Assembly: GCF_029893635.1 (NCBI RefSeq) | Contig: NZ_JARXYR010000001.1 | Span: 124,001-188,000, forward strand | Length of the DNA: 64,000 nt | From: Variovorax sp. TBS-050B | GTDB taxonomy: Bacteria > Pseudomonadota > Gammaproteobacteria > Burkholderiales > Burkholderiaceae_C | Reading direction: 5' to 3' | Shown: positions 53,060-62,431 of the stretch, one piece after another | How the letters are laid out: every line of letters begins with the position of its first letter | Numbering within the stretch: the first letter of the stretch is position 1 | Position numbers and translations under genes: made by a program | Notes under the pieces: model-generated | Databases searched by the model: none | Seen by the model: only the letters and a program-made list of their open reading frames with translations | Told to the model about the DNA's origin: nothing

Positions 53060-53100
53060 AAAAAAATGCCCCTGCCGCCTCGCAAGAGGCGACAGGGGCA
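53060..53100 (-). terminator. Rho-independent terminator after the EF-Tu paralogue
   Basis: The stem pairs TGCCCCTGCCGCCTC (53067-53081) with GAGGCGACAGGGGCA (53086-53100), with one G-U wobble and a CGCAA-type loop. On the minus strand it is followed by a run of seven T (53066-53060). Positioned 17 bp after the EF-Tu stop; it could also serve map from the other side, although the U-tract is on the minus strand. Confidence 0.88.
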
Positions 53101-53116: not shown

Positions 53117-54313
53117 TCAGCCGATCAGCGCGGTCACGACGCCTGCGCCGACGGTCTTGCCGCCTTCGCGCATCGCAAAGCGCATGCCGGCTTCGATCGC
53201 GACGGGCTTGTTCAGCTCGAAGCTGATCTGCGCCTGTGCGCCCGGTTCGACCAGGCCGGTCTCGGTCTCGACGCGAATGACACCTGTCACGTCGGTCGTG
53301 CCGAAGAAGAACTGCGGCTGGTAGCCGGAGCCGAACGGGGTGTGGCGGCCACCTTCGTCCTTGCCGAGGACGAAGATCTGCGCACGCCCCGTCCGGTACG
53401 GCTTCAGCGCACCGGGCTTCACGACCACCTGGCCTCGCACGACATCGTCGCGCTTGACTCCGCGCAGCAGCAGGCCGACGTTCATGCCGGCCCGTGCCTC
53501 GACGACGTCCTTGTGAAAGGACTGCACGCCGGTCACGACCACCTGTTCGTCGCCGGCCGCGCTGAGCCCGATGATCTCCAGGCTGTCGCCGACACGGATC
53601 ACCCCGCGCTCGACGCGGCCGCTCACCACGGTGCCGCGGCCCGTGATGGTGTGCACGCCTTCGACGGGCATCATGAACGGGCCACCGTAGTCGCGCACCG
53701 GATCGGGGATGCACGTGTCCAGCGCGTCGACCAGATCGGCAATGCACTGCACATCGGGCCCTTCGAGCTCGCCGCGCTCGGCGGCGGCCAGGGCCTTCAG
53801 CGCACTGCCGAAGACGAAGCGCGGATCGCGGTACCCGTGGGCTTCCAGCAGCGCGCCGATCTCCATCTCGATCAGCTGCTCGATGTCGGCGCGGTCGCTT
53901 TCGGCCACGAGGTCCATCTTGTTCACGAACACCACCATGTGGCCGACGTTGACCTGGCGCGCCAGCAGCACATGCTCGATGGTCTGCCGTGCGGCGCCCT
54001 CGGTGCCGTCCACCAGCAGGATCGCGCCGTCCATCTGCGAGGCGCCGGTGATCATGTTCTTGATGTAGTCGGCATGCCCCGGGCAGTCGATGTGCGCGTA
54101 GTGGCGGCTGTGCGATTCGTACTCGACGTGCGAGGCGTTGATCGTGATGCCACGCTCGCGCTCTTCCTTCGCGTTGTCGATCTGACCGTAGGACAGCGCA
54201 CGACCGCCGAGGCGTGCAGCCTGCACGGAGGTCAGAGCGGCCGTCAGGGTCGTCTTGCCATGGTCGACGTGACCGATGGTTCCGACGTTCACATGAACTT
54301 TGTTGTTCATCAT
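53117..54313 (-). CDS. Divergent elongation factor Tu paralogue
   Basis: 398 residues from ATG 54313 (ATGATG; GGAG seven bases upstream). All G-motifs are intact: GHVDHGKT (14-21), [14 protein letters not shown] (76-83), NKMD (131-134) and SALKAL; domains 2 and 3 are complete through [15 protein letters not shown]. It differs from housekeeping EF-Tu in several ways. It starts MMNNKVHVN and so lacks the basic KEKFERTKP segment. It has [14 protein letters not shown] in place of the usual VAATDGPMPQTREH. In the domain 3 segment [13 protein letters not shown], Gly338 replaces the near-invariant Arg333 (E. coli numbering). No fusA or ribosomal protein genes adjoin. Binds GTP and presumably aminoacyl-tRNA. 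Regulation is suggested by two upstream leader-peptide/terminator units. Confidence 0.93.
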
Positions 54314-54426: not shown

Positions 54427-54459
54427 AAAAAAAACCTGTCGGGCTGACCACCCGACAGG
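54427..54459 (-). terminator. Attenuator-type terminator 1 (EF-Tu proximal)
   Basis: Perfect nine-base stem CCTGTCGGG (54435-54443)/CCCGACAGG (54451-54459) with a seven-base loop, followed on the minus strand by eight T (54434-54427). It lies 114 bp upstream of the EF-Tu start and just downstream of a 27-codon leader ORF, so it would stop EF-Tu transcription unless bypassed. A competing-type stem CTCCAGGC/GCCTGGAG (54485-54508) precedes it. Confidence 0.88.
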
Positions 54460-54510
54460 CTTTCTTCTTGCCTGAAGGATGGACCTCCAGGCGCACGAGG
54501 GCCTGGAGCT

Positions 54511-54594
54511 CTACACGAACCACTCCACGGAGGCGCAGCACGGCACTGCGCAGGCAGCACGTGCGGCGAAAGAAAGTTCTCGTTCAAGGCTCAT
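54511..54594 (-). CDS. Leader peptide 1, 27 residues
   Basis: ATG 54594 with GGAG at good spacing encodes [20 protein letters not shown] then ASVEWFV and stops at 54511-54513. Rich in Ala and Cys codons (three Cys, two adjacent), ending Trp-Phe-Val. It is followed by a perfect eight-base stem and then by terminator 1, the classical layout of ribosome-dependent transcription attenuation. Another frame of the same mRNA ([12 protein letters not shown]) is also open, so the functional frame needs confirmation. Confidence 0.6.
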
Positions 54595-54617: not shown

Positions 54618-54659
54618 CAAAAAAGAAAAGACCCGGTGGCTCGAGGCCTACCGGGTCTT
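54618..54659 (-). terminator. Attenuator-type terminator 2 (EF-Tu distal)
   Basis: Perfect ten-base stem AAGACCCGGT (54628-54637)/ACCGGGTCTT (54650-54659), extended by inner GC pairs. On the minus strand it is followed by TTTTCTTTTTTG. Sits after leader peptide 2 and a GGAGGC/GCCTCC stem (54670-54684), upstream of leader peptide 1. It could also end the antiporter transcript, but the leader ORF and pre-terminator stem make a second attenuator more likely. Confidence 0.85.
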
Positions 54660-54695
54660 GTGAAACTCAGGAGGCCGAGCCTCCGGGGGAAAGCT

Positions 54696-54791
54696 CTAGA
54701 AAAGCGGTTCAGCGAAAAACGCGCTCAACGAAGCCGCCGCAGCAGCGGTGCGGGTCTTCGAGTCGGCTTGCGCGTTGGCGAACGGCTTCAT
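54696..54791 (-). CDS. Leader peptide 2, 31 residues
   Basis: ATG 54791 opens MKPFANAQADSKTRTAAAAA then SLSAFFAEPLF and stops at 54696-54698. Five consecutive Ala codons and a Phe-rich end are notable. No strong ribosome site precedes it, so confidence is lower than for leader 1. Its stop codon lies 12 bases before a perfect six-base stem and 37 bases before terminator 2, the same spacing logic as the first unit. Confidence 0.5.
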   Translation of the reverse strand: MKPFANAQADSKTRTAAAAASLSAFFAEPLF

Positions 54792-54853
54792 GGTGCTGGG
54801 CGTGCGGCCGGCTTCGGCCACACGACGATGTTGATTTCTTTGGGGGGCGAAGG

Positions 54854-56626
54854 CTAACACTGCCGGGGCGGTTCCGCAAGCGCGTCGCCGCTGAACAAGG
54901 CGCGGCCTGCGGCGAGGCCGCTCACCAGTTCCATCTGCAGGCGCTGTTCGTCCTGCCGTCGGATGCGCCGCGACAGTTCGGCGATCGCCGCCGCGTCCAC
55001 GCCCAGCCGCTGCAGCGCGGCTGCGCCCAGCACCATCGCGGATTCGAAGGTCTCGCGCACCTGCACATCGGCGCCGGCGTGGATGAGATCGAGGCTGTGG
55101 ATGCGGTCCCTGGCGCGCGTGACGACCGGCAGAAGGGGAAACGTCGCCTTCAGCACCTCGGTGATGCGCGTGGCCGCCTCGGGAGCATCGACGCAGACGA
55201 GCGCGACGCGGGCCCTGCCGGCGCCGGCGGCACGCAGGATGTCGAGTCGGGTGCCGTCGCCGTAGTAGACATCGAACTTGAGCCCGCGCGCGACTTCGAT
55301 CATCTCGACGTCGGTGTCGATGATCGAGACGCCATAGCCGCGCGAGAGCAGGAACTGGCTCGCGATCTGACCGACGCGGCCGAACCCGATCAGCAGCGCC
55401 GCCTCGGTGACGTCGGGCGGTCCTTCGAAACCGCCGGGTGCCGACGTGCGGCGCCGGCTTCGCGCGATGCGCATGACGGTGGTCGCCAGTGGCGTCAGCA
55501 CCATCGAGAGGATGACGATGGCGGTCAGCACGGCACTCTGCCGTGCATCGATGATGCCGACGGCCGCCGCAGCCGCGTAGAGCACGAAGGCGAACTCGCC
55601 TCCCTGCGCCATGAGCACGGCGCGTTCGAGCGCTTCGTCGCGCGGCGTACGGAACACCCGGGCGACCAGGTAGATCGCCAGCGACTTGAGCAGCATGTAC
55701 ACGGTGACGTGCGCCAGTACCCACGGCCATTGGGCCGCGACCAGGCCGAAGTCGAGCGACATGCCGACAGCCAGGAAGAACAGGCCGAGCAGCACGCCGC
55801 GGAACGGCTCGATGTCGACTTCCAGCTGATGGCGATACGACGATTCCGACAGCAGCACACCGGCGACGAACGCGCCCATCGCCATGGAGAGGCCGCTGCG
55901 CTCCATGATGCAGGCGGCGCCCAGCACGACCAGCAGCGCCGCTGCCGTCATCACTTCGCGCGCCCTGGCCTTCGCGAGCAGGTCGAACAGCGGGTTCAGC
56001 AGCCAGCGGCCCGCCGCGACGAGCCCGGCGATCGCGGCCGCGGCGGCAAGAACCGTACCGAACGCGCCACCTGCCTGCGTCGTCCCCGTGCCCCCGTGCG
56101 CCGGCGCGAGCAGGCTCACGACAGCGAGCAGCGGCACGATCATCAGGTCCTCGAGCAGCAGGATCGACACGATCTTCTGTCCGCGCGGCGATGCGAGCCG
56201 CCCGCTCTCCTCGAGCATCTGCATGACGATGGCCGTGGAGGTCAGCACGAAGCCCGCCGCAGCGATGAAGGAGATGGCGGCGCGCTCGCCCATGGCCATC
56301 CCGGCGGCCGTGAGTGCCGCCGCGCAGACCGCCACCTGCACCGAGCCGAGTTCGAAGATCTGCCGCCGCATGCCCCAGAGCCGTGAGGGGCGCATCTCCA
56401 GCCCGACGATGAAGAGGAACATCACGATCCCGAGTTCTGCGAGCTGCAGGATGGCCGAGGGGTCGGTGAAGAGACCCAGGCCGAAAGGCCCGATCGCCAG
56501 GCCCGCGGCGACATAGCCGAGCACCGACCCCAGGCCAAGGCGCTTGAACAGCGGCGCGGCGATCACCGCGGCCGCGAGCAGCGTGACGACCGGCAGCAGA
56601 TCGATGCCATGCCGCGACGCACTCAT
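54854..56626 (-). CDS. CPA2-family monovalent cation:proton antiporter (KefB/KefC-like)
   Basis: 590 residues. About 12 membrane segments in residues 1-385 (LPVVTLLAAAVIAAPLFKRLGLGSVLGYVAAGLAIGPFGLG; VAGVLLSESSYRHQLEVDIEPFRGVLLGLFFLAVGMSLD). A cytoplasmic RCK/TrkA-N domain begins LLIGFGRVGQIASQFLLSRGYGVSIIDTDVEM (about 405-436, GxGxxG nucleotide motif). Inner-membrane K+/H+ exchange, gated by nucleotide or glutathione adduct in the family. No KefF/KefG ancillary gene is adjacent. Upstream of the EF-Tu leader region on the same strand. Confidence 0.95.
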   Translation of the reverse strand: MSASRHGIDLLPVVTLLAAAVIAAPLFKRLGLGSVLGYVAAGLAIGPFGLGLFTDPSAILQLAELGIVMFLFIVGLEMRPSRLWGMRRQIFELGSVQVAVCAAALTAAGMAMGERAAISFIAAAGFVLTSTAIVMQMLEESGRLASPRGQKIVSILLLEDLMIVPLLAVVSLLAPAHGGTGTTQAGGAFGTVLAAAAAIAGLVAAGRWLLNPLFDLLAKARAREVMTAAALLVVLGAACIMERSGLSMAMGAFVAGVLLSESSYRHQLEVDIEPFRGVLLGLFFLAVGMSLDFGLVAAQWPWVLAHVTVYMLLKSLAIYLVARVFRTPRDEALERAVLMAQGGEFAFVLYAAAAAVGIIDARQSAVLTAIVILSMVLTPLATTVMRIARSRRRTSAPGGFEGPPDVTEAALLIGFGRVGQIASQFLLSRGYGVSIIDTDVEMIEVARGLKFDVYYGDGTRLDILRAAGAGRARVALVCVDAPEAATRITEVLKATFPLLPVVTRARDRIHSLDLIHAGADVQVRETFESAMVLGAAALQRLGVDAAAIAELSRRIRRQDEQRLQMELVSGLAAGRALFSGDALAEPPRQC

Positions 56627-58145: not shown

Positions 58146-59147
58146 ATGTCCGCTGTCCCGCTTCTTTCCACCTGCCGCGCTTCGGCGATGGCCGCCCTCC
58201 TGTTTGCATGGGCCGGAGTCTCGCCAGTGCTCGCGGCCGAGCCGTTCCCGAGCCGGCCGATCCGCCTCGTCGTGCCCTTCGGCACGGGCGGCCCCACAGA
58301 CCTGGTGGCGCGCGGCATCGCGACGAAGATGAGTGCCTCGCTCGGCCAGCCGGTGCACGTCGAGAACCGCGCCGGCGCGGGCGGCGCCATCGGCGCCGAT
58401 GCGGTGGCCAAGGCCAGGCCCGACGGCTACACGATTGGCATTGCGACGGCGTCGACGCACGAATTCACGCCCGCTTGCAGCAAGGAGCCGCCGTACCACC
58501 CGGTGAACGATTTCGAGATGGTGGGCCTGATCGCGACCGCGCCGACGCTGGTGCTGGTGAAGGGCGACGCCATGTTCACGAGCTTTGCCGAGTTGATCGC
58601 CGCGTCGAGAAAGGAACCCGAGCGCTATACCTGGGGCACGCCGGGCGTCTGCAGCAACGCGCACTTCCTGGTCGAGATGCTCAACCGCAGCGGCGGCGGG
58701 CGCATCCTGCCGGTGCCGTACCGCGGCAACAACCAGGCCACGCTGGACCTGATCGCCGGGCGCGTCACGCTCGCGAGCGATGCAGTCACCACCGTCTCGA
58801 TGGGCTTCATCGCCTCGGGGGCCGTCCGCCCGATCGCGATCATCGGCAAATCCGGGCTCGACGCATTGCGCGGGGTGCCGACCTTCGCGGACCAGGGGTT
58901 CGACGTTGGCGCCTTCAACGTGTGGCAGGGGCTCGTGGCGCCGGCGAAGACGCCGGCCGACGTGGTCGGCCGACTCAATGCGGCGCTGCGCGATGCCCTT
59001 CAGGATGCCGCGCTCCAGCAGCGCTGGCTCGACGATGGCGTGACGCCCTCCCCGGACCTGAGCCCGGCTGCGATGAAGGCGCAGATCCAGGCCGGCTACG
59101 AAAACGCGCGCAGGCTCGCCGAGGCGCTCGGCCTCGCGATCAACTAG
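58146..59147 (+). CDS. Bug-family (TctC-like) periplasmic solute receptor
   Basis: 333 residues. Signal peptide at residues 1-30 (MAALLFAWAGVSPVLA before AEPFPSRPIRLVVPFGTGG). VHVENRAGAGGAIGADAVAKARPDGYTIG and PVPYRGNNQATLDLIAGR are Bug signatures. Third solitary Bug gene in the window. Its stop overlaps that of the convergent winged-helix/NTPase regulator by four bases. It is divergent from the HbpS/SDR pair. Confidence 0.95.
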   Translation: MSAVPLLSTCRASAMAALLFAWAGVSPVLAAEPFPSRPIRLVVPFGTGGPTDLVARGIATKMSASLGQPVHVENRAGAGGAIGADAVAKARPDGYTIGIATASTHEFTPACSKEPPYHPVNDFEMVGLIATAPTLVLVKGDAMFTSFAELIAASRKEPERYTWGTPGVCSNAHFLVEMLNRSGGGRILPVPYRGNNQATLDLIAGRVTLASDAVTTVSMGFIASGAVRPIAIIGKSGLDALRGVPTFADQGFDVGAFNVWQGLVAPAKTPADVVGRLNAALRDALQDAALQQRWLDDGVTPSPDLSPAAMKAQIQAGYENARRLAEALGLAIN

Positions 59148-62100
59148 CGCGGTGCATCCAGCAGCGCCTTCGCTTCGATGGAGGCGGCACGCGCCGCGAC
59201 CGCGTCCTGCGTGTCGAAGCCTTCGCTCACGAGCGCCAGCGTCGACTCGAGCACCTCGATCGCCGCCTGCGGCTCGCCGCGCGCGCGGGCCGCGGCGGCA
59301 AGGCTCACCGCCGTGCGCAGCGCCCAGGGCAGCGTGCCTTCGCGCAGGGCGAGGGCGTGCGTCTCGACCAGCAGCCGCTCAGCCGCGACGGCGTCCGTTG
59401 CGCGCAGGCGCTCCGCGGCGACGCGCTGCAGCTCGCAGCGGCACCAGCCCGCGAGGCCCGCTTCGCCGATCCCGACCAGGCGATCGGTCACGTAGTGGGG
59501 ATGGAAGGTCGCCAGCAGCTGCGACAGCTGCGGCACCCGCTCGACGGAGGAGGGCAGCGGTGGCGGCAGGCCCTGGGCTCCCTGTTCGCGCCAGCGGATG
59601 TAGACCTCGAACGCGCGGCCGTAGCCGTGCCAGACCGTCAGCGCGCGCTCCGCAGTCAGCCGCAAGAGCCGGTCGAGGCGCTCGCGCGCCAGTTCGATGC
59701 GGCCGCACCAGATCGCGAGTGGACAGGCGCTCGAGGCGAGCGCGCTCGCCAGGGCGACGGGCTCGTGCGCGCGCTCGGCCGCGTCGATCGCCTGCCGGAC
59801 GGCGCGCTCTGCCTGCTCGGGCAATCCGAGCAGCCAGAGCACGCGCGCGTGGATGGCGCCCATCGCGACGCGTCGATCGATGCGCACGCCCGCGAGAAAA
59901 GGCACGCGCGTGAGCGCCGGTTCGGCCAGGCCGCGCTCGCAGCAGGCCGCTGCCTCGCGCTGCGCCCCCAGCAGGTGGAGCGTGGGTGCGAAGATGCGGT
60001 CGCGGTGCAGCTGCAGCGCCACGTCGCTGGTGCCGGCGGTCAGGATTTCATATTGCTGCGCATGCAGGAGCATGAGGCCGGGGTCCGAGGCCTGGTAGGC
60101 CCCCATCCACTGCGTGCTGCGCGTGACCGCCATCAGGTGCGCGTCCCCGATCTGCTCGGCCAGTTCGAGGGCCTTGGCGAAGGCGCGATCCCGGTCGGGA
60201 TGCAAGCCGTGGGCATTGAAGATCACATGCCCCGCGATCACGTTGAGTTCGAGCTCCAGCCGCGGCTCGATGCGATGCCCCGAGCGCGCGAGCTCGGCCA
60301 TCGCCGCCTCGACGTATTGGCGGTGCTCGTCGGTGAACGACATCTGGAAGAACAGCGCCGCCGCCTTCACCACGAGCGCGATGCCCAGCGACAGGTCGCC
60401 ACCGCTCTGGAAGCACCAGTTCAATGCGGCGCGCACGTCGTCCACGTGGCCGCCGAAGGCAGCCATGAAATCGGCAGGCAGCATCGTCCGCCATGCCTCC
60501 TCGGAGCGCTCGAGCGCTGCCAGGAAGTGCTGCGCGTGCAGGCGGCGCAGCCGCGCCGACTCGACGTCGACGGGCGCGAGTCGCTCGGCCGCATAGGCGC
60601 GCGTGGTCTCGAGCAGCCTGAAGCTGAGCTCCTCGCCGCCTGCATCGACCGTGAGCAGCGACTTGGCGACGAGTTCGGTGATGGCGTCCACGGCCTCTTC
60701 CTGCGCGAGGTCCGGACTCACTGCCACGGCCAGCGCGGCGTCGAGCGTGAACGGCCCCGCGAACACCGACAGCCGCAGCAGCAGACGGCGCTCCGCGTCC
60801 GACAGCAGCTCGAAGCTCCAGTCCAGCGTCGCACGCAGCGAACGGTGGCGCGGCACCGCCGTGCGACGGCCCTTGTTGAGCATCGCAAACCTGTCGTCGA
60901 GCGCCTCGGCGACGGCCTTGAGTCCGAGCGAGCCGACACGTGCCGCTGCGAGCTCGATGGCCAGCGGAAGCCCATCGAGGCGCCGGCAGATGGCCTCGGC
61001 CGCGGCTGCGTCCGAGTCCTGCAGGCTGAACTGGTCGACGGATGCGGCGCATCGCTCGACCAGCAGTTCCACCGCGGAGAAGGCGAGCAGTTGCCTGGCC
61101 GAAAGGCCCGCGCCCGCAGGCGGCATGGTCAGTGGCGGTAGCCGCTGCACCCACTCGCCCTGAGCCCCGAGGGGCTCACGGCTGGTGGCGAGCACGTGCA
61201 CGCCGGGCGCGCGCCGCAGAATGTCCTCGATCAGCGTGGCAACCGGGCCGATCAGGTGTTCGCAGTTGTCGAGCAGCAGCAGAAGGCGCTTGTCGTGCAG
61301 GAAGGCGACGAGGCTGCTGAGCGCATCGCCCACGAGCGAGCCGAGGCCGAGCGCCGACGCCAGCGCAGCCGGCACGAGCGCGGGATCCGAATGCGAGGCG
61401 AGGTCCACGAAGTGCACCCCGCTCCATTGCGCGGCGACGTCCTCACGCGTGGCCACGGCCATCGCGACGGTCGTCTTGCCGATGCCCCCCGTCCCCACCA
61501 GCGTCACGAGGCGGCGCCGCGCGATCTGCTGCACCAGCGTCTGGATCGCTGCCTCCTGGCCGATCACGCGGCTCAGCGGCGAGGGCACGAAGCCGCCCGG
61601 CGCCGGCTGCATGCCGCGCGTCTGCGCCGACGGCGGGGCCGGCACCGCGGCGCTGCTGCGGAACAGCTCCGCGACGAAGCTGTAGCCGCGGTTGGGCACG
61701 TTGATGATGTAGCGCCGTCCCTCCTGGCCGTCACCGATGGCCCGGCGCAGGCTGGCGATGTGCACGCGGAGATTGCCTTCGACCACGACGTTGCGCGGCC
61801 AGACGCGCTTGAAGATTTCGGTGTTGCTGACGAACTTGCCCGCGTTCTCGATCAGGAACAGCAGGATCTCCAGCGCCCGGCTGCCGAGCCGTACCGGCTG
61901 GCCCGATTCGAGCAGCACGCGCCGGGTCGGCGAGAGGCTGAACGGACCGAAATGGATCAGCATCTCCAGGCCGGCCGGCCCTCCGCCGCCGCCCGAGGGC
62001 GGATCGCCGCCGCCAATGTCGCGCAGCATGTGCGCGCTTGCGAAGCCGGACCGCGCGTGGTGGGCGCCGCCGCGTGCGCCGCCGCGACGGGCGGTTTCCC

Positions 62101-62158
62101 TGCATTGGAGGTCGAAGGCCTCGGCCCATTCCAATGGCCATTTGCGCCTGTTGCTCAT
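59144..62158 (-). CDS. Winged-helix/NB-ARC-type ATPase transcriptional regulator
   Basis: 1004 residues from ATG 62158 (GGAGA at good spacing). Residues 66-163 form an OmpR/PhoB-type winged helix (FGPFSLSPTRRVLLESGQPVRLGSRALEILLFLIENAG; RVHIASLRRAIGDGQ; YIINVPNRGYSFV). An NTPase of the STAND type follows: Walker A GTGGIGKTT (222-230), Walker B LLLLLDNCEHL (Asp297), and sensor ATSREPLGAQGEW. The C-terminal half is helical, TPR-like repeats (ALERSEEAWRTM, RLELELNVIAGHVIFNAHG). No response-regulator receiver is present. Divergent from the paoAB operon across 273 bp, so it is a strong candidate for its effector-dependent activator. Confidence 0.93.
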   Translation of the reverse strand: MSNRRKWPLEWAEAFDLQCRETARRGGARGGAHHARSGFASAHMLRDIGGGDPPSGGGGGPAGLEMLIHFGPFSLSPTRRVLLESGQPVRLGSRALEILLFLIENAGKFVSNTEIFKRVWPRNVVVEGNLRVHIASLRRAIGDGQEGRRYIINVPNRGYSFVAELFRSSAAVPAPPSAQTRGMQPAPGGFVPSPLSRVIGQEAAIQTLVQQIARRRLVTLVGTGGIGKTTVAMAVATREDVAAQWSGVHFVDLASHSDPALVPAALASALGLGSLVGDALSSLVAFLHDKRLLLLLDNCEHLIGPVATLIEDILRRAPGVHVLATSREPLGAQGEWVQRLPPLTMPPAGAGLSARQLLAFSAVELLVERCAASVDQFSLQDSDAAAAEAICRRLDGLPLAIELAAARVGSLGLKAVAEALDDRFAMLNKGRRTAVPRHRSLRATLDWSFELLSDAERRLLLRLSVFAGPFTLDAALAVAVSPDLAQEEAVDAITELVAKSLLTVDAGGEELSFRLLETTRAYAAERLAPVDVESARLRRLHAQHFLAALERSEEAWRTMLPADFMAAFGGHVDDVRAALNWCFQSGGDLSLGIALVVKAAALFFQMSFTDEHRQYVEAAMAELARSGHRIEPRLELELNVIAGHVIFNAHGLHPDRDRAFAKALELAEQIGDAHLMAVTRSTQWMGAYQASDPGLMLLHAQQYEILTAGTSDVALQLHRDRIFAPTLHLLGAQREAAACCERGLAEPALTRVPFLAGVRIDRRVAMGAIHARVLWLLGLPEQAERAVRQAIDAAERAHEPVALASALASSACPLAIWCGRIELARERLDRLLRLTAERALTVWHGYGRAFEVYIRWREQGAQGLPPPLPSSVERVPQLSQLLATFHPHYVTDRLVGIGEAGLAGWCRCELQRVAAERLRATDAVAAERLLVETHALALREGTLPWALRTAVSLAAAARARGEPQAAIEVLESTLALVSEGFDTQDAVAARAASIEAKALLDAPR

Positions 62159-62431
62159 GGTTCTCCTCGCCAAGGGAGTGCACGAGCACCGGCTCTGGCT
62201 TCTGGGGTTCTTGGTATGTGTCAACGAAGCGTAGACGTAAGAAAAAATCTTTGCAACTGCGCGGCCTGGCCCCTCGACCTTGATCTTTGGCGGCCTTTCT
62301 TCGCCCGATTAGCACCTTTTGCCACTTAATCAAGGATTGACAAGTCTTAACTCGAAAGACGCAGCACGTCGCTTCATCATCGCCAGCCGGCATCCCCCAC
62401 CAGGGCCCTCCAGGCTGATGAAAGGAAGTTC

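Follow-up and report, generated by a model that had tools for sequence, protein, structure and literature searches.

An EF-Tu paralogue of huge-phage lineage behind a conserved uORF-terminator leader in Variovorax sp. TBS-050B

The stretch of the Variovorax sp. TBS-050B genome analysed here (the window; 64,000 nucleotides of contig NZ_JARXYR010000001.1, positions 124,001 to 188,000) carries an intact paralogue of elongation factor Tu that groups with EF-Tus of huge phages, away from the housekeeping EF-Tu of the same genome. The gene is under purifying selection, stands alone as a unit and is preceded by a conserved leader in which two short upstream ORFs (uORFs) are each followed by a terminator hairpin. 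The explanation favoured here, with a probability of roughly 0.6, is that a domesticated viral-lineage EF-Tu is kept off by ribosome-sensing attenuation and induced by a failure of translation such as EF-Tu inhibitors would cause. No description of such an EF-Tu was found in searches of the open-licence literature.

Results

An intact EF-Tu gene under purifying selection

The coding sequence occupies 53117..54313 on the minus strand, with a start ATG at 54313 or 54310 and the stop TGA at 53119-53117, and the complete ORF encodes 397 or 398 amino acids depending on the start chosen. The product matches EF-Tu over its full length, passing the cut-offs of NCBIfam PRK00049 (543.3 bits vs 449), PRK12735 (528.2 vs 479) and PRK12736 (521.1 vs 452) and just missing that of the EF-Tu equivalog TIGR00485 (518.5 vs 522.4). 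All GTPase motifs of bacterial EF-Tu are kept, and the basic N-terminal tail is absent. The preliminary description had reported a complete protein with these motifs, without the basic N-terminal segment and with Gly at E. coli position 333; the ORF and profile search, the alignment with orthologous and bacterial sequences and the alignment to TufA bear it out on each of these points.

The genome consists of two contigs, and both housekeeping tuf genes lie on the larger one (4.93 Mb), apart from the paralogue on its contig of 600,856 bases. Identity between the paralogue and its own housekeeping EF-Tu is 55%. Since the orthologues share 88-94% identity with the window protein and dN/dS ranges from 0.07 to 0.17 across 28 pairs of orthologues, the paralogue is evidently under purifying selection; its GC3 is 0.88 vs 0.90 for housekeeping tuf.

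Placement within a viral EF-Tu lineage

The three nearest EF-Tus in IMG/VR are 65-67% identical to the window protein, and the best identity in a bacterial set of 81 rows is 58%. In a 94-row tree, which took in 43 of the 81 bacterial rows, the eight distinct orthologues form one clade (support 100) inside a 28-row clade (100) whose remainder is 20 viral rows, and the housekeeping EF-Tu of the same genome falls with Duganella, near E. coli. A slower 41-row tree, with 10 bacterial and three other viral rows as outgroup, recovers the bacterial clade at 100/100 and its union with viral sequences L118 and L119 at 95/93; none of 200 bootstrap trees contains a viral clade that excludes the bacteria, and p in the AU test is 0.04, only just under 0.05. 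Both trees thus place the paralogue within the huge-phage EF-Tu clade and away from its own housekeeping counterpart.

The label “viral” rests on IMG/VR membership and on tRNA arrays. Contigs of 190-620 kb carry 13 of the 22 loci from the first IMG/VR scan, and tRNA genes occur in 20 of the 21 viral loci scanned, with up to 23 in 11 kb. At the locus nearest in the tree (L118), a gene for a T4 gp32-type single-strand DNA-binding protein adjoins tuf.

All 28 rows of the clade, the 8 orthologues and the 20 viral sequences alike, have Gly333; among the other 23 IMG/VR rows, 22 have Arg and one has Tyr. For the viral rows this count is circular, because the 20 rows were labelled by having Gly, but their union with the orthologues in one clade comes from the tree and is independent of that labelling. 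Four sequences were left out of the 94-row tree and of the counts over 28, 81 and 23 rows, namely L108 (349 aa, a shortened frame), L112, L114 (a near-copy of L098) and L162; an alignment that keeps L095-L115 has 21 viral rows, 17 with Gly333 and 4, L108 among them, with Arg. A separate viral EF-Tu clade of 12 rows keeps Arg333.

Huge phages encode elongation factors G, Tu and Ts, as described by Al-Shayeb et al. 2020 (PMC7162821). Their EF-Tus share with the paralogue Gly333, the lack of a basic N-terminal tail, a deletion at E. coli positions 163-164 and the signature residues. Unlike them, the paralogue sits in a bacterial genome, with no phage domain among seven scanned neighbours and no tRNA array, resembles housekeeping tuf in GC3, and has a uORF/terminator leader of which the covariance model described below found none near tuf in 21 viral loci.

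Residues at drug-related positions

Residues are numbered after mature E. coli TufA of NC_000913.3, the alignment reference. We take R230, R333 and T334 to be pulvomycin resistance positions, Y160, Q124, G316, Q329 and A375 to be positions of kirromycin-class resistance, and G257 and G275 to be those of GE2270A resistance; no co-mention of pulvomycin with R230 or R333 was found in the open-licence literature. In domain 3 the paralogue has Gly333 against the E. coli reading RPQFYFRTTDVTG, together with Gln at 327 and Phe at 331. Unchanged relative to TufA are Q124, Q329, A375, E378, G316, R230, G257 and G275, which agrees with the earlier statement that the kirromycin-contact residues Gln124, Gln329 and Ala375 are retained. 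Differences occur at D109, M112, E348 and M351, among other positions; these four lie near the EF-Ts interface.

Gly333 occurs in all eight distinct orthologues, and Arg333 in all 81 bacterial rows, the genome's own housekeeping copy included; the housekeeping EF-Tus of relatives, where a Gly would have made the residue ordinary, therefore do not have it. A resistance mutation private to this bacterium is ruled out, as Gly333 marks the whole lineage, orthologues and viral clade together. Being common to the viral lineage that encloses the gene, Gly333 is probably an inherited lineage mark rather than a residue selected in this bacterium.

A change from Tyr to His at position 160 had been overlooked in the preliminary description. 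His160 is present in 8/8 distinct orthologues and in none of the 81 bacterial rows, which have Tyr (65), Asn (7), Gln (7), Glu (1) or Lys (1). It adds a second presumed resistance position changed in the paralogue.

Distribution and surroundings of the gene

Orthologues were found in 6 of 61 sampled genus genomes (own included), 4 of 299 family genomes, 1 of 399 order genomes (the own genome) and 2 of 397 phylum genomes (own and a congener); these samples overlap, and in the later ones no more than a few candidates were scored in each genome. A species collection added at least one orthologue among the matches listed (80 loci kept), from Albitalea terrae; its locus entered twice as the same record (L014 and L015) and was counted once, giving 8 distinct orthologues. 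Matches in two further collections, one of plasmids (E limit 1e-100, 63 records) and one of phage records (E limit 1e-20, 19 records), are all below 60% identity.

The seven neighbours scanned with Pfam encode an autotransporter, an M24 peptidase, a Na/H exchanger, a short-chain dehydrogenase, an HbpS-like protein, a TctC protein and a regulator, with no phage or defence domain among them. As these are ordinary genes, cargo of a prophage or plasmid was rejected as an explanation. ARAGORN finds no tRNA within the window, and Rfam gives no match at the gathering threshold there, leader included. Nucleotide similarity between the window copy and the others reaches at most ~550 bases upstream of the gene and ends ~65 bases downstream of it, past the terminator. 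No neighbour gene common to all 8 loci was found by crude longest-ORF calling; in the nucleotide comparison, run with three of the eight loci as queries, 200-500 bases downstream are common to three same-genus loci and an upstream stretch to two. An empty-site comparison through the upstream transporter gene was abandoned: the best copy in 40 other genus genomes is only 59% identical, so there is no clean empty site. At 59144-62224, adjoining the gene for the TctC-type binding protein, lies a large regulator in which an NB-ARC-like domain comes after an OmpR-type DNA-binding domain.

A leader with two uORF-terminator modules

The leader, conserved across three genera, is read on the minus strand like the gene. 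It begins with a possible promoter core at 54851..54879 (TTGCGG, 17 nt, TAGCCT), suggested by the leader alignment, in which GTGTTAGCCT is invariant across the 8 aligned sequences; a consensus scan found no sigma-70-type promoter. Module 1 comprises uORF1 at 54696..54791 (31 codons and TAG, MKPFANAQADSKTRTAAAAASLSAFFAEPLF), the 5' arm of a predicted antiterminator at 54668..54687 (CCCGGAGGCTCGGCCTCCTG), which is nearly invariant in the 8 leaders and starts 8 nt past the uORF1 stop codon, and terminator hairpin 1 at 54619..54659, a stem with a U-rich tract (-22.5 kcal/mol, z -4.2). Module 2 comprises uORF2 at 54511..54594 (27 codons and TAG, with GGAG ahead) and terminator hairpin 2 at 54427..54460, a stem followed by U8 (-31 kcal/mol for a 54-nt stretch, z -5.7). 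An intrinsic terminator at 53060..53100, supported by both the fold and the consensus scan, closes the unit, and a similar stem stands 3' of the gene in all 8 distinct loci.

Module 1 is present in 8/8 distinct orthologues and module 2 in 7/8, the Albitalea copy being without it, and homologous uORFs follow the same counts. A short ORF followed by an intrinsic terminator ahead of the gene, the arrangement of an attenuator, is therefore found here, and the conserved frame suggests that the uORFs are translated. Their lengths vary (93, 96 or 105 nt for uORF1; 84, 87 or 93 nt for uORF2), by 3 to 12 nt between leaders, yet the frame from homologous start to homologous stop is preserved; the four segments flanking the uORFs have lengths of mixed phase. 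That uORF lengths are multiples of three follows from the definition of an ORF, and the informative part is the retention of homologous starts and stops. The N-terminal starts and C-terminal ends are more alike than the middles, where selection on amino acids is not clear in either uORF; ribosome passage therefore seems to count more than a particular peptide. The commonest residues are Ala, Leu, Thr and Ser in uORF1 and Ala, Ser, Val and Glu in uORF2.

The consensus scan, for which 1.7 terminator-like stems are expected by chance in the region, lists neither leader terminator on the minus strand and stem 2 on the plus strand only. A bulge in stem 1 and the pairing of stem 2 into its U-run are the probable reasons, and the folding energies support both terminators. 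A covariance model (R1), built for module 1 from the orthologue leaders, recognises module 2 of the window as well (54505-54422, E 7.5e-4). It has no match at either housekeeping tuf locus or around tuf in the 21 viral loci, the sole viral match (L115) lying 3.7 kb from tuf.

A competing fold in module 1

In module 1 a second fold, the predicted antiterminator, consumes the arms of the terminator, and the best terminator and non-terminator forms differ by no more than 2.8 kcal/mol in all 8 leaders. The mean terminator probability is 0.64. Shuffling the upstream arm and nothing else, 200 times per leader in all 8, gives 0.98, and each leader falls in the lowest 9% of its own shuffles. Two of them, L009 (0.96) and L013 (0.99), are terminator-dominated and lie hardly below their own shuffle means.

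The effect of a ribosome was modelled by folding only the RNA past an assumed ribosome edge, 14 nt beyond the A-site codon. With no ribosome, the module-1 terminator probability ranges from 0.11 to 1.00. A ribosome on the uORF1 stop codon raises it to at least 0.99 in 5/8 leaders, with 0.21-0.33 in the other three, and moving the edge 3 nt further on gives at least 0.99 in 7/8. One codon earlier it is 0.10-0.58 in 6/8, L009 and L013 remaining terminator-dominated with the ribosome lagging. Covariation says little about module 1, which is too conserved: one pair of 21 has a two-sided change.

Module 2 has no competing fold, its terminator probability being 0.91-1.00 at every modelled ribosome position. 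Pairing schemes first drawn by eye for both modules were replaced by these computed folds, which leave a switch in module 2 unsupported.

Accessory EF-G genes under similar leaders

In the 61 genus genomes, R1 matches the 6 tuf leaders and three leaders ahead of an accessory EF-G of 671-672 residues; two more EF-G leaders were found among 250 family genomes. Accessory EF-G occurs in 5/61 genus genomes, with two uORFs around a terminator in 4/5, and is absent from the window's genome at E 1e-250. Two genomes (G014 and G016) carry both accessory tuf and accessory EF-G, the EF-G of G014 being without the leader. The remaining R1 matches (8/17 in the genus scan, 14/20 in the family scan) were judged by eye, from the downstream ORFs, to be unrelated terminators. 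A viral origin of the EF-G paralogue was dropped, as a viral scan with its own peptide patterns confirmed no relative.

Accessory EF-G with two uORFs around a terminator is seen at L235:3991-6009 and in the leaders of L236, L237, L240, L245 and L251. The uORFs begin MKF or MKI... and MRTYDKLIATI..., uORF1 being less clear in L251. In two EF-G leaders (G016 and G045), uORF2 contains an RLR run, a motif described for macrolide-resistance leader peptides (PMC6310831).

Discussion

The claim that the paralogue is a special-purpose protein and not a spare copy is well supported by its separate lineage, stand-alone unit, uORF/terminator leader and purifying selection, and a role while translation is inhibited is plausible in view of the leader. 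In the favoured explanation, an EF-Tu of huge-phage lineage would have been domesticated in the bacterium as a self-contained unit of promoter, uORF1-terminator 1, uORF2-terminator 2, tuf and closing terminator. While translation is normal, the ribosome would complete each uORF, rest on the stop codon and cover the start of the antiterminator, whereupon the terminator would form and tuf stay off. When elongation is slow, with housekeeping EF-Tu inhibited or scarce, the ribosome would lag within the uORF, the antiterminator could form and tuf would be transcribed; termination at module 2 would presumably be relieved too. The product would act as a replacement elongation factor whose drug-contact surface, with Gly333 and His160, differs from that of the blocked EF-Tu. 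Because the direction of the switch, on when translation is slow, is drawn from module 1 and from the known attenuators of HflXr and armZ, we infer it by analogy. Counting against this account are the module-2 terminator, which dominates throughout, the unevenness of module 1 among the eight leaders, and the retention of Arg230, Gly275, Gln124, Gln329 and Ala375 at presumed resistance positions.

Both of these attenuators show the kind of logic proposed here. HflXr (lmo0762) of Listeria is controlled by a small-ORF-dependent transcription attenuator, with induction and resistance shown there (PMC6310831); like the paralogue, HflXr is a homologue of a housekeeping ribosome-acting factor. It is another factor, however, and its leader has one 14-aa ORF with an RLR motif, whereas the paralogue has two modules with uORFs lacking an RLR run. 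For armZ (PA5471) of Pseudomonas aeruginosa, PMC13041342 describes a leader ORF, PA5471.1, whose full translation leads to the terminator and whose stalling leads to readthrough, which is the terminator logic suggested for the paralogue; that system has one leader ORF, and the gene it regulates encodes an efflux anti-repressor instead of a translation factor.

Streptomyces tuf3 is a reserve elongation factor under stringent conditions, and the alignment with it proposed in the preliminary description yields a partial likeness. Eleven EF-Tu3-like sequences were compared, ten from a Streptomyces-centred search and one from Nocardia, all identified as second copies in the sampled genomes and not by name; L261 and L307 were left out of the count. 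L261 comes from a plasmid of Streptomyces, and its tuf clusters with that of E. coli in the tree. As in the window genome, an extra divergent EF-Tu accompanies the housekeeping copies, and position 160, His in the window protein, is His in 8/11 and Gln in 3/11. The likeness ends with the other residues: Ala230 and Ala275 are found in 11/11, all of which retain Arg333 as well as the N-terminal tail, whereas the window protein has Gly333, Arg230 and Gly275, and the two fall in separate clades. EF-Tu3-like proteins and the paralogue are therefore not one family, and membership in Streptomyces EF-Tu3 is ruled out by residues and tree. What stands is a functional parallel, that of an extra EF-Tu with changed drug-contact residues, drawn by analogy with the Streptomyces/Nocardia EF-Tu3 (actEF-Tu) that PMC4342817 describes as resistant to EF-Tu-targeting antibiotics. 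The plasmid tuf of L261 (NZ_CP109451.1, 61843-65955) is foreign or contaminating.

The same leader anatomy would answer any slow translation, and the paralogue could accordingly be a general stress or starvation EF-Tu, its uORFs sensing low charged tRNA or slow growth and its product serving as a reserve elongation factor. Expression of Streptomyces EF-Tu duplicates in stress conditions (PMC4342817) and the response of the armZ leader to a tRNA maturation defect (PMC13041342) fit such a role. It nevertheless appears rather unlikely, as no single rare amino acid dominates uORF1 or uORF2, and a sporadic distribution (6/61 genus genomes) is more what one expects of an optional protection gene than of a core response. 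Phage-exclusion proteases and interbacterial toxins also act on EF-Tu. An EF-Tu that replaces or shields the housekeeping protein under attack by phage, toxin or competitor would agree with the viral lineage of the paralogue, and the leader would then sense the damage; yet Gly59-Ile60, the presumed cleavage site of the Lit protease, is kept in the paralogue, although 19 of 47 IMG/VR rows are changed there, and the seven Pfam-scanned neighbours are without a defence or phage domain, which makes a defensive role improbable.

Two further explanations deny the leader or the gene a function of this kind. The terminators might be those of the upstream gene and the uORFs might have arisen by chance, with an ordinary promoter downstream of them driving the paralogue; a same-strand transporter gene does end just upstream, at 54854, and the scan expects 1.7 such stems by chance. 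We consider this less probable again, because other orthologues carry this leader after a different upstream sequence, the two uORF-terminator pairs recur with starts and stops in frame, and the competing fold of module 1 goes beyond that of shuffled sequences. Viral lineage and scattered distribution could also be those of a decaying, functionless relic of a phage insertion. That account is very improbable and already disfavoured by the evidence of selection: the frame is intact, dN/dS is low, GC3 is near that of housekeeping tuf and the leader is conserved in three genera.

If the favoured explanation of a domesticated, attenuated EF-Tu is right, transfer from virus to bacterium has brought in a central translation factor that now answers to a sensor of its own process, which would constitute a case of domesticated viral translation machinery. 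It would also offer a testable reason for huge-phage EF-Tu, as a form escaping whatever blocks that of the host, and point to on-demand target replacement as a resistance principle that resistance-gene catalogues may not look for. A wider proposal is put forward tentatively, at somewhat less than even odds: some Burkholderiales would have taken up a giant-phage EF-Tu as an inducible reserve that steps in once their own EF-Tu is blocked and which, together with the accessory EF-G and its similar tandem-uORF leader, makes up a ribosome-controlled reserve elongation machinery. Tolerance would then come from replacing the target factor on demand and not from removing the drug.

The viral EF-Tu genes collected for comparison yielded some observations of their own. 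Thr-Val or Val-Val stands at positions 59-60 in L100-L105, L107, L108, L111, L140, L144-L146, L148-L151, L154 and L156. The Gly59-Ile60 bond of E. coli EF-Tu is, we assume, the cut site of the Lit exclusion protease, and escape from host defence is a possible meaning of these changes. Nine IMG/VR EF-Tu genes have a common 5' RNA element (L100:4922-4950 and its equivalents in L101-L105, L107, L108 and L113), consisting of two hairpins, first GCCCCUGGAGYCGGA..UCCGRCGGGG and then a small one, GGG-YUGGCA-ACCC. No Rfam match to it was found in the 8 of 9 loci searched; compensatory changes affect 7/14 predicted pairs, and the element may be autoregulatory or translation-enhancing. At L108:4998-6044 the viral EF-Tu open frame has only 349 residues, possibly through a frameshift or an assembly error.
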